Shown piece by piece: positions 4,981 through 7,748 of a stretch of 33,637 bases of DNA (position 1 is its first letter; each line of letters starts with the position of its first letter). A program made the translations under genes and the position numbers. Source of the stretch: Aneurinibacillus terranovensis DSM 18919. GTDB taxonomy: Bacteria; Bacillota; Bacilli; Aneurinibacillales; Aneurinibacillaceae. The notes below the pieces were generated by a model. That model did not search any database, was not told the DNA's origin, and saw only the letters and a list, made by a program, of their open reading frames with translations. The stretch is taken from positions 1 to 33,637 of the forward strand of contig NZ_AUMJ01000063.1 of NCBI RefSeq assembly GCF_000430625.1, given 5' to 3'.

Positions 4981-5037
4981 AAAAACACTTGAAATAGACC
5001 GTTTTTGCATGGGATACGGTCTATTTCAAGTGTTTTT
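4981..5037. terminator. Long bidirectional terminator hairpin
   Basis: Two perfect 22-base arms (4981-5002 and 5016-5037) with a 13-base loop contain CACTTGAAATAGACCGT and its complement. The + strand stem ends in GTTTTTCTG and the - strand stem also ends in a T run. It separates the Lrp-type unit from the convergent Spo0E-like gene, whose stop codon lies inside the right arm. Confidence 0.9.
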
Positions 5038-5187
5038 CTGCCGCTTATAATACTCATTTAATAAGGTGTCCAGTTTTTGGCTCACCAGGATGATTTGCGG
5101 GTCTGTAAGCGGCCTCTCCCTTGCTAACTTATTCAATTTCCTTCTTAATCCTTCTATAATCTTTAAAGTTTCATCTTTCTCCCCCAT
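5026..5187 (-). CDS. Spo0E-family aspartyl-phosphate phosphatase
   Basis: This 53-residue protein reads MGEKDETLKIIEGLRRKL near its start and has the family signature SQKLDTLLNEYY at about 36-47. In Spo0E, YnzD and YisI, the SQxLD motif and a two-helix hairpin dock on Spo0A~P and dephosphorylate it, delaying sporulation. AATAAGGAGAAACAT gives a good ribosome binding site. A sigma-A-like promoter sits at 5233-5261. The gene is divergent from the agr-type operon, across a 210-base region containing a long inverted repeat. Its stop codon overlaps the terminator stem at 4981-5037. Confidence 0.88.
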   Translation of the reverse strand: MGEKDETLKIIEGLRRKLNKLARERPLTDPQIILVSQKLDTLLNEYYKRQKNT

Positions 5188-5261: not shown

Positions 5262-5309
5262 TAGATACTATACCATAGTGATCGTAAAATCTATTATCTA
5301 ATAATGTCG
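5250..5309. repeat. Inverted repeat between the spo0E-like and agr-type units
   Basis: CGACATTAT (5250-5258) is repeated inverted as ATAATGTCG (5301-5309). A second pair, TAGATA with TATCTA, continues inward with a three-base offset. The 60-base span lies between the divergent genes and its left arm overlaps the spo0E-like -35 box. It may be a bipartite operator for a looping regulator or an RNA hairpin at the 5' end of the agr transcript. Confidence 0.45.
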
Positions 5310-5397
5310 AATTATGCGATATTAAATAATAAATAATTTAAAAATGAGGAAGGGATTTTGGCATAAAATGTTTAATTTAATTGGGGAGTGGTAGAAC

Positions 5398-6705
5398 ATG
5401 GGCATTTTTGTTTTTATTTTTTATTCCGTGCCGGAGATGTGTCTCATCATCGCACTAACCATTACGCTGGCCGGATACAACCTTTCAGCAAACAAGTTAA
5501 AGTGCTTCATTTGTTCACTTTTTCTTGCTTGCTTTGTGGACATCTTCCGTGATGCTGATATAGATATCGCTGTGAGACTGGTCCTTCAGTTCTTAATCTT
5601 TGTTATATCTATCAAGTATGTATTTAAAATTCCCTTTATGCGGTTGTTTGTCTGCACGGTTTCTACCCTTCTGCTGGTACAAATAACAGAGCTGGCTGCA
5701 ATGAATACAGCGATGGCGATCAGCGATAAAACTCTGGGAGAACTGCAGAGTCACCCTTTTTTATGGCTGTTAGCGGTCTGGCCTATTTTAATCATTTTAT
5801 CTTTGTTTCTGTACTTTATTCGCAAACGGAATTTTTCTATCTTTAAAGGAGAAATATACCCTCCTACAAGTTTGTTTGGCTCTTTCTATTCTTATTTAAT
5901 TTTTACAGCCTTCTATACCCTTTCCATCATTGGGGCTGAACTTTTAACAGGTAAACTTGAACAATCCAATCCGAGTATCGTACTTATTTTTACCTTTCAA
6001 ATCTTCTCGGTTCTGATGGTGAGGGAGTTTATTAAATCTCAAGTAAGAGAAACCGAACTGTCTTTTTACAAAGAGTATGTCAGGGATGTCACTTCTTTGT
6101 TCACTACCATCCGGGCCCAGCGCCACGATTTTTCAAATCATATTCAGGTCCTTTACATTTTTCTAAAGCAAAGAGATTATTCAAGAATGCTTCAATACAT
6201 TGAACAGTTGGTAGGCCAAATCAAAACGCTTAATCAGGTGCTTATCTCCGATAATCCCGGGTTAAGCGCGTTACTTCAGGCAAAGCTTTCACGATTTGAG
6301 GAAGAGGGAATCTCCATTTCACTCGATATCATGTCTACATTAACCGAATTAAATATCAACATGATTGAAATGAACCAGATTATCGGAAATCTGCTCGATA
6401 ATGCGGCAGATGCGATAAAAGCCGCCGGTTATCCTACCGACGAGATTCATCTTCAAACCCTTCAGGAGATTGACCATGTAAAGATAAAGGTAAAAAACTA
6501 CCGGCCCGTTATTCCTCCTGATATCCAGAAGAAAGTATTTGATCATGGTTTCTCAACAAAGCCAAACCATTCCGGAATTGGCCTGGCAATAGTAAGTGAA
6601 CTGGTCAATAAGAACAATGGAAGTATTGCCTTATTGAGCAATGAAATTGAAGGAACAGTATTTACGATCAGGTTTCCGGTAAAAGGGGAGATGCAATTTG
6701 AGTAA
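5398..6705 (+). CDS. agrC: AgrC-like membrane sensor histidine kinase
   Basis: Of 435 residues, the first 210 or so form about six or seven membrane segments, as in AgrC receptors of cyclic peptides. A cytoplasmic kinase follows. The H-box RAQRHDFSNH places the phosphorylated histidine at about 243. The GHKL ATPase has its N-box at NLLDNAADA (331-339) and G-box at HSGIGLAIV (391-399). The RHDFxNH form is that of the AgrC/CitA/DcuS type kinases. GGGGAGTGGTAGAAC precedes the ATG. The gene overlaps agrB by 8 bases, so the two are translationally coupled. It is expected to sense the peptide made from agrD. No partner response regulator is present nearby. Confidence 0.9.
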   Translation: MGIFVFIFYSVPEMCLIIALTITLAGYNLSANKLKCFICSLFLACFVDIFRDADIDIAVRLVLQFLIFVISIKYVFKIPFMRLFVCTVSTLLLVQITELAAMNTAMAISDKTLGELQSHPFLWLLAVWPILIILSLFLYFIRKRNFSIFKGEIYPPTSLFGSFYSYLIFTAFYTLSIIGAELLTGKLEQSNPSIVLIFTFQIFSVLMVREFIKSQVRETELSFYKEYVRDVTSLFTTIRAQRHDFSNHIQVLYIFLKQRDYSRMLQYIEQLVGQIKTLNQVLISDNPGLSALLQAKLSRFEEEGISISLDIMSTLTELNINMIEMNQIIGNLLDNAADAIKAAGYPTDEIHLQTLQEIDHVKIKVKNYRPVIPPDIQKKVFDHGFSTKPNHSGIGLAIVSELVNKNNGSIALLSNEIEGTVFTIRFPVKGEMQFE

Positions 6706-7321
6706 AAGAGTAGCTGATTCAATTGCAGCCACTTTAGTCGAAGAGGGGACTACCCCCCATTCTGCCGCCGTCTTATCCTATGGCTTACAGATCATCATGA
6801 ATACGCTGATCAAGGTCACTCTTGTTACTGTTGTCGGATGGGCCCTACATATCCTGCTTTATCTTTATATAATGATTCTGGCTTTTGGGACCCTCCGGAT
6901 GATTACCGGAGGAGTTCATGCTCATACTTTTGTAAGATGTGCAACGATAAGTCAGGTTTCTTTTACAGCCTTATCGCTATCGATCCCATACACGCTGCCA
7001 TTTTTTGCGAGCCATCATCTTCTTTTTACGATCGCTGTCGTTATCTTTGGAAGCGTGGTGACGGCACGATATGTGCCAGGCAAATGGGAAGGAAGGAACT
7101 TTACTGCAAAGCGAATCAAAGTCTCAAAAAATCTCTCTTATTTCTTTCTTCTTATCATCCTCGCAGCAGGATATGTGATTAACGCTTATCACTACATTTA
7201 TGTATATGACATTGTATGGGCCGCCATGCTGGGAATCACCTGGCAGTACATTCTGGTTACACCAGCAGGGTATAAGCTGTTCACCATCATTGAAAATGTG
7301 CTGACTCTAAAAAGGAGGTGA
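6698..7321 (+). CDS. agrB: AgrB-type accessory gene regulator protease
   Basis: This 207-residue membrane endopeptidase should cut the C-terminal tail from the AgrD precursor and close the ring. The catalytic pair is visible in GGVHAHTFVRC: His74 and Cys81, seven residues apart as in S. aureus AgrB. About five or six membrane segments follow. Translation starts at TTG within the last codons of agrC, behind AAAAGGGGAG. Its last codons and stop form the ribosome binding site of agrD. The length is slightly above the roughly 190 residues of classical AgrB. Confidence 0.92.
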   Translation: MSKRVADSIAATLVEEGTTPHSAAVLSYGLQIIMNTLIKVTLVTVVGWALHILLYLYIMILAFGTLRMITGGVHAHTFVRCATISQVSFTALSLSIPYTLPFFASHHLLFTIAVVIFGSVVTARYVPGKWEGRNFTAKRIKVSKNLSYFFLLIILAAGYVINAYHYIYVYDIVWAAMLGITWQYILVTPAGYKLFTIIENVLTLKRR

Positions 7322-7327
7322 AAGAAT

Positions 7328-7462
7328 ATGTGGAGAATACTGAGAAGCAAAGCGTTCAAATGTGTGGCGTCACTTGCCTATCTGGTCGCTTTAACGGACG
7401 TCAGCGCAAATAGCTGGTTCGTAGCGTACCAACCGGAAATTCCGGAAGAATTACAGAAATAA
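7328..7462 (+). CDS. agrD: AgrD-type cyclic autoinducer precursor with Ser at the ring position
   Basis: The 44-residue precursor has an amphipathic N-terminal leader (MWRILRSKAFKCVASLAYL), a short core and the conserved acidic tail QPEIPEELQK, equivalent to the EPEVPKEL tail of other AgrD proteins. By alignment with the AgrD of Clostridium (CLWFT) and Listeria (CFMFV), the five-residue ring is Ser29-Trp-Phe-Val-Ala33, followed by Tyr34-Gln-Pro. Ser in place of Cys would give a lactone rather than a thiolactone, as known for Staphylococcus intermedius. AAAAAGGAGGTGAAAGAAT overlaps the agrB stop and is an excellent ribosome binding site. Ring limits are inferred. Confidence 0.88.
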   Translation: MWRILRSKAFKCVASLAYLVALTDVSANSWFVAYQPEIPEELQK

Positions 7463-7476
7463 TATGAGGGCACGAA

Positions 7477-7659
7477 ATGGATGAGGACACAAAAGAAATG
7501 CTTAAAGAAGTGGAGAAGCTCATTGTGCAGTATCCAGCCGAGGAAGTGGACAAGTGGATTGACGCTTACCGTGAATATGAAAAAGAAGCTGACGATCCAC
7601 TTACTTTTTTTGAATGGATTCTGCAGAATAAAAAACCGTGGCCTAGCAATCGGTTATGA
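7477..7659 (+). CDS. 60-residue acidic protein of the agr-type operon, unknown
   Basis: It starts 14 bases after the agrD stop behind TGAGGGCACGAA and is followed by the operon terminator, so it is probably co-transcribed. The sequence MDEDTKEMLKEVEKLIVQYP is acidic and likely helical, and the C-terminal part contains WIDAYREYEKEADD and FFEWIL. There is no signal peptide, membrane segment or cysteine. No family is recognised. Its place in the operon suggests a role with the quorum system, such as a kinase or regulator-binding protein, but this is inference. An overlapping frame is a shadow. Confidence 0.7.
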   Translation: MDEDTKEMLKEVEKLIVQYPAEEVDKWIDAYREYEKEADDPLTFFEWILQNKKPWPSNRL

Positions 7660-7713
7660 GATTCTCGCTTTACCATGAGGCAGTATACGGATAGACATTG
7701 GAAACATTAATAG

Positions 7714-7748
7714 CCCACCCTGGTTGTGATAACGGGAGTGGGTTTTTT
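7714..7748 (+). terminator. Terminator of the agr-type operon
   Basis: CCCACCC (7714-7720) and GGGAGTGGG (7734-7742) pair imperfectly around TGGTTGTGATAAC and are followed by TTTTTTCTTT. It comes 55 bases after the 60-residue gene. Confidence 0.7.

Follow-up and report, generated by a model that had tools for sequence, protein, structure and literature searches.

In classical agr systems, AgrC activates a regulator that in turn acts on the promoter of agr. Staphylococcal agrBDCA and the Listeria agr locus share with the operon described here AgrB, AgrD, a polytopic GHKL-type AgrC and the logic of a lactone or thiolactone autoinducer. The present operon differs from them in its C-B-D order, the absence of AgrA, a 0A box upstream, a Spo0E neighbor and a DHp motif that reads QRHDF.NH.QVL instead of FRHDYINI. 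The Clostridioides difficile Agr1 system (agrB1D1) also has an Agr-type peptide without a linked AgrA, and its AgrD1 peptide promotes early sporulation by a route described as unknown (PMC8534292; PMC11210211), but the locus has no kinase and agrB1D1 is activated by RgaR (PMC10602386). In Clostridium perfringens, the agrBD peptide genes are likewise apart from the response regulator; there the receptor VirS is encoded elsewhere and paired with VirR (PMC7492741), whereas here the receptor lies in the operon and the regulator alone is missing.

KinA-E and the Spo0 phosphorelay offer a parallel of another kind, in that the kinases have no adjoining regulator gene and Spo0F, Spo0B and Spo0A are all encoded in the genome. 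Kin proteins have HisKA, TxGFQL-type specificity residues and often PAS domains (PMC6136694), whereas the AgrC described here combines SPOB_a and QVIFKQ with a membrane domain resembling that of a peptide sensor, and lacks PAS. Bacillus Rap-Phr systems also bring peptide quorum sensing into the phosphorelay, but there linear peptides are imported and act on phosphatases in the cytoplasm, in contrast to the secreted, presumably cyclic peptide and membrane kinase of this locus. The Spo0B node is itself variable, as Spo0B is anchored in the membrane in most Paenibacillus (PMC12826061). A literature search covering few subscription papers returned no paper on agrA-less agr operons, on Spo0A boxes or control at agr operons, or on AgrC acting on the phosphorelay.

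The window, which is the whole stretch of DNA analysed (33,637 nucleotides), is the entire contig C45 of a 4.25-Mb genome (G000; 98 contigs) from a spore-forming Bacillota lineage. The features of the locus are as follows.

5026-5187, minus strand: spo0E-like aspartyl-phosphate phosphatase gene, 53 aa (PF09388), kept beside agrC in the family
5305-5311, plus strand: putative Spo0A (0A) box TGTCGAA (exact match; comparative 7-mer enrichment)
5398-6705, plus strand: agrC-like orphan sensor histidine kinase gene (Pfam, hydropathy, orthologues)
6698-7321, plus strand: agrB, predicted membrane peptidase processing AgrD (PF04647, family alignment)
7328-7462, plus strand: agrD, 44-aa autoinducer precursor (TIGR04223, over the cut-off)
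7477-7659, plus strand: gene for an accessory 60-aa acidic small protein (no family match in Pfam or NCBIfam)
7712-7748, plus strand: intrinsic terminator 3' of the operon (RNA fold and T-run)

The four genes, their coordinates and their order agree with a preliminary description of the locus. agrB has a TTG start, and its 8-base overlap with agrC is confirmed. AgrC (435 aa; ATG start, good ribosome site) has the architecture of an AgrC-type receptor kinase: a polytopic N-terminus with about 6-7 hydrophobic segments by hydropathy, a DHp domain of the Spo0B type (Pfam SPOB_a, 1e-11) with His243, and a GHKL-type HATPase_c domain (1.5e-16). The catalytic hallmarks expected of a working kinase, namely His243, the N-box and G2, are intact. 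The protein aligns with the S. aureus AgrC kinase module in the PDB (6e52, 2.4e-12) and matches most of the length of the NCBIfam staphylococcal AgrC model, at 63.7 bits far under the 500-bit cut-off. Orthologues in four related genomes are 50-55% identical. Beyond generic kinase domains and Spo0B, its own genome encodes no similar protein, and the best match to its DHp domain there is that of Spo0B.

AgrB (PF04647, 4.5e-26) retains the catalytic H74 and C81 of the peptidase within GGVHAHTFVRC and is 46-57% identical to its aligned relatives in the family. AgrD, encoded next to agrB, scores 40.3 bits against a TIGR04223 cut-off of 19 (2.4e-10). By analogy with AgrD of S. aureus, its ring would be the Ser-lactone SWFVA, cut before YQPEIPEELQK. 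Relatives have SWWTS, SFWTV, SWFVS and SWFFA at this position; the constant leading Ser and the varying remainder are as expected for a lactone of varying specificity. The 60-residue gene, earlier called unknown, indeed lacks a family match; a homologue 47% identical lies directly 3' of agrD in G003 (L069 6026-6169) and none was found at the remaining family loci examined, so the gene occurs in two family operons only. The terminator described after it is supported by a hairpin of -18.4 kcal/mol (z -2.08) with a T-run, and is missing from the output of a consensus terminator scanner.

The C-B-D order had been presented as an oddity, a view that comparison does not sustain. This order is the rule in the family and is common across 399 genomes of the class, in many families and with or without a LytTR regulator, so the gene order is unremarkable and was rejected as a mark of novelty. 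Three other family genomes have the regulator-less C-B-D operon (L068, L069, L071), and in a fourth related genome agrC (L092) and agrBD (L070) are separated. Four further family loci (L073, L074, L094, L154) are C-B-D-A. They share the order and, in three of the four, a divergent Spo0E gene within 1.25 kb, but differ from the window in a LytTR regulator after agrD, a distinct kinase clade and the lack of a 0A box upstream of agrC. In G006, a second kinase of the AgrC type, 41% identical to that of the window, adjoins neither agrBD nor a regulator (L093 5903-7213, G006:C87); this orphan receptor is possibly an eavesdropper.

The window encodes no LytTR response regulator, as had been noted, and no other response regulator either. 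Extending the search to the whole 4.25-Mb genome, as the preliminary description had suggested, yields one AgrB, one AgrD and neither an AgrA nor any unpaired LytTR response regulator. Only two LytTR proteins are present: a stand-alone protein of 223 aa without a receiver domain (L001 1135-1806, G000:C14), and LytT, which adjoins its LytS kinase (C17). The earlier inference that the kinase signals to a regulator encoded elsewhere is therefore supported, and the emphasis on gene order is not. A census of the 35 receivers in the genome and their neighbors leaves Spo0F, Spo0A, chemotaxis types and one Fis-type regulator unpaired. Spo0F (L130) lies beside fbaA with its QYGIR motif intact, Spo0A (L143) matches TIGR02875 at 414 bits (2e-124), and Spo0B (L023) is in its usual place before obg and matches B. 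subtilis Spo0B structures; AgrC is an orphan kinase in a genome with all three. The Fis-type protein (177-aa REC + HTH_8; L129, G000:C5:713-1042) is the sole unpaired DNA-binding regulator besides Spo0A. It lies at the edge of contig C5, so its kinase might be off the contig.

Spo0A was not considered as the output in the preliminary description because both the divergent spo0E-like gene and the 0A box had been overlooked. The sequence TGTCGAA, the established core of the Spo0A box, lies between spo0E and agrC, 93 bases upstream of agrC and 124 bases upstream of spo0E, as a putative site in the agrC promoter region. The window alone has three 0A boxes where 4.5 are expected, no more than chance, and thus the comparative test alone carries weight. 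This test took in the 300 bases before each of 14 regulator-less operons that have this kinase type (families f1, f2, f7, f9, f19 and f24), against a background of 102 other intergenic upstream regions, taken from the loci of the same and of related agr operons. TGTCGAA is present upstream of 8 of the 14 operons and in 3 of the 102 background regions (Fisher p 6.7e-7); among the regulator-bearing agr operons it precedes 1 of 15. An unbiased ranking of every 7-mer puts it first, with 8 observed and 0.41 expected. The motif was first noticed by eye in three relatives and tested afterwards; without these three, the counts are 5/11 and 3/102 (p 1.6e-4). Five of the seven boxes that precede agrC are 64-167 bases from its start codon, and the eighth (L117) is 102 bases before agrB. 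A looser box, GTCGAA, gave a weaker contrast (8/14 regulator-less versus 3/15 regulator-bearing) and was set aside. Spo0A is encoded in every genome of the comparison, and the region upstream of the window genome's own spo0A has three copies of the shorter GTCGAA. These sequence comparisons lend good support to control of the agr operon by Spo0A; the box is evidence that Spo0A controls the operon, not that the operon controls Spo0A.

In B. subtilis, Spo0E regulates Spo0A negatively. The Spo0E-like protein of the window (PF09388, 2.2e-14; motif SQKLD versus the classical SQELD) is encoded divergently from agrC and shares its intergenic region. At 6 of 11 family loci (one each in G000 and G001, two each in G003 and G006), agrC has such a gene no more than 1.25 kb away; by our arithmetic, chance would give about 0.02 loci. 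Each of the four genomes has 4-9 spo0E-like genes. The remaining flanks of the family agrC loci are unrelated to each other. Given their common ancestry, the linked loci count as one conserved unit and not as six independent events. No such adjacency occurs among the agr loci examined outside the family, and its presence at regulator-bearing family loci led us to reject it as a mark of regulator-less loci alone.

With the regulator gone, a Spo0A site in the promoter, Spo0A unpaired and a gene for a Spo0A-type phosphatase adjoining, the most economical interpretation is that Spo0A has taken over from AgrA. Because the classical output regulator acts on the agr promoter, a 0A box at this position is what a Spo0A output predicts. 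AgrB would process AgrD to a lactone of five residues. On sensing this peptide, the orphan AgrC would pass phosphate to, or withdraw it from, the phosphorelay, either at Spo0F or at Spo0A directly. Spo0A~P on the 0A box before agrC would then close a feedback loop, as AgrA does in classical agr, with the divergent Spo0E phosphatase as a brake. We rate this circuit, from AIP through AgrC to Spo0A and back to the operon, at an even chance. The loss of AgrA and the Spo0A site in front of the operon indicate that its role is probably to time the onset of spore formation, rather than to control classical agr targets. A broader proposal is more tentative and falls somewhat short of even: that spore-forming Bacillota of at least five families share a class of agr in which Spo0A serves as response regulator. 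In that class the kinase that receives AIP would phosphorylate the Spo0 pathway directly, Spo0A~P would auto-induce the operon, and a cyclic lactone peptide would have sporulation as its quorum output.

Several observations count against a Spo0A output. The exact box is missing from 6 of the 14 regulator-less operons, that of G006 among them, and the boxes of L069 (-32) and L188 (-18) are near the agrC start codon. In the Brevibacillaceae-like regulator-less operons (f23), TGTCGAA is at the background rate (1/17) and not enriched. Spo0E also adjoins LytTR-bearing loci, and AgrC has no PAS domain, in contrast to the majority of sporulation kinases. Its specificity residues, read at the sites used by Davidson et al. 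(PMC6136694), are QVIFKQ and not TSGFQL. QVIFKQ is nearly invariant in orthologues (QVILKQ in L068) and agrees at three of six positions with QVGYKL of the genome's own Spo0B. The KinA-like orphan kinases of this genome have TSGFQL, seven of its other kinases are TSGFQL-like, and classical AgrC proteins have SSEYRE or LSEYRS; the Spo0F-type TxGFQL residues are not found in AgrC. Likeness to Spo0B is not diagnostic, as L109, a close relative paired with its own LytTR regulator, reads QVSYKL and is even more alike; DHp likeness to Spo0B was therefore rejected as proof of the target. The AgrC residues are nearest to those of Spo0B and match no known sporulation kinase, and they neither prove nor exclude Spo0F or Spo0A as the target.

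The main rival holds that Spo0A merely times the operon, as a sporulation or stationary-phase signal, while AgrC cross-talks to the distant LytT (C17), to another paired regulator, or to the Fis-type regulator on C5. This is a serious possibility, if a doubtful one. The closely related kinases L109 and L115 adjoin LytTR regulators, the genome has both candidates, one LytT and one unpaired REC + HTH_8 protein, and phosphorylation of a non-cognate regulator by Listeria AgrC has been reported (PMC10891604). Against this, LytT already has its adjoining kinase, and the Fis-type regulator, whose kinase is perhaps out of view, has no tie to agr.

AgrC might instead be mainly a phosphatase or antagonist that, in its AIP-bound or free state, drains phosphate from Spo0F or Spo0A and, jointly with Spo0E, holds back sporulation when density is low or when it is high. 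The negative role of its conserved neighbor points this way, and so does the resemblance of its specificity residues to Spo0B, a protein that docks Spo0F as well as Spo0A. The catalytic features of an active kinase are intact, however, and an antagonist is unlikely. That the operon is a relic of classical agr, its agrA lost or hidden by misassembly, is highly improbable: although regulator presence changes five to seven times on the kinase tree, where L109 (with) and L111 (without) are sisters, the same regulator-less arrangement recurs in several relatives, some on large or single contigs, with intact frames and 50-57% protein identity that already point towards purifying selection and activity, and the whole genome has no unpaired LytTR regulator. 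The matching arrangement in three relatives excludes a misassembly that conceals agrA.

If AgrC does feed Spo0A, then signal, processor and receptor lie in one operon with the master sporulation regulator as output, an arrangement that is directly testable. It would bear on how agr-type peptides influence sporulation, C. difficile AgrD1 being an example (PMC11210211), and would show a quorum kinase rewired from a LytTR regulator to the phosphorelay, since there are sister loci of which some have the regulator and some lack it.

The f23 group (L198-L234) comprises about 17 regulator-less C-B-D operons whose kinases have the H-box IKHDSLNHYTAINGF and residues TAGFKK, near TAGFQL of KinA; judged by these residues, it may be a second, independent regulator-less agr group that targets Spo0F by the canonical code. 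In the Paenibacillaceae-like family f5 (L224, L229-L237, L246, L258), agrB-agrD pairs without kinase or regulator are followed by a conserved gene of 110-140 aa. Orphan SPOB_a kinases of ~440 aa at L049, L051, L058, L060, L062 and other Peribacillus/Bacillus loci have QVGLKL, close to Spo0B-type codes, and are candidate non-PAS sporulation kinases; those of the Peribacillus loci L049 and L051 are encoded just upstream of miaA-hfq.
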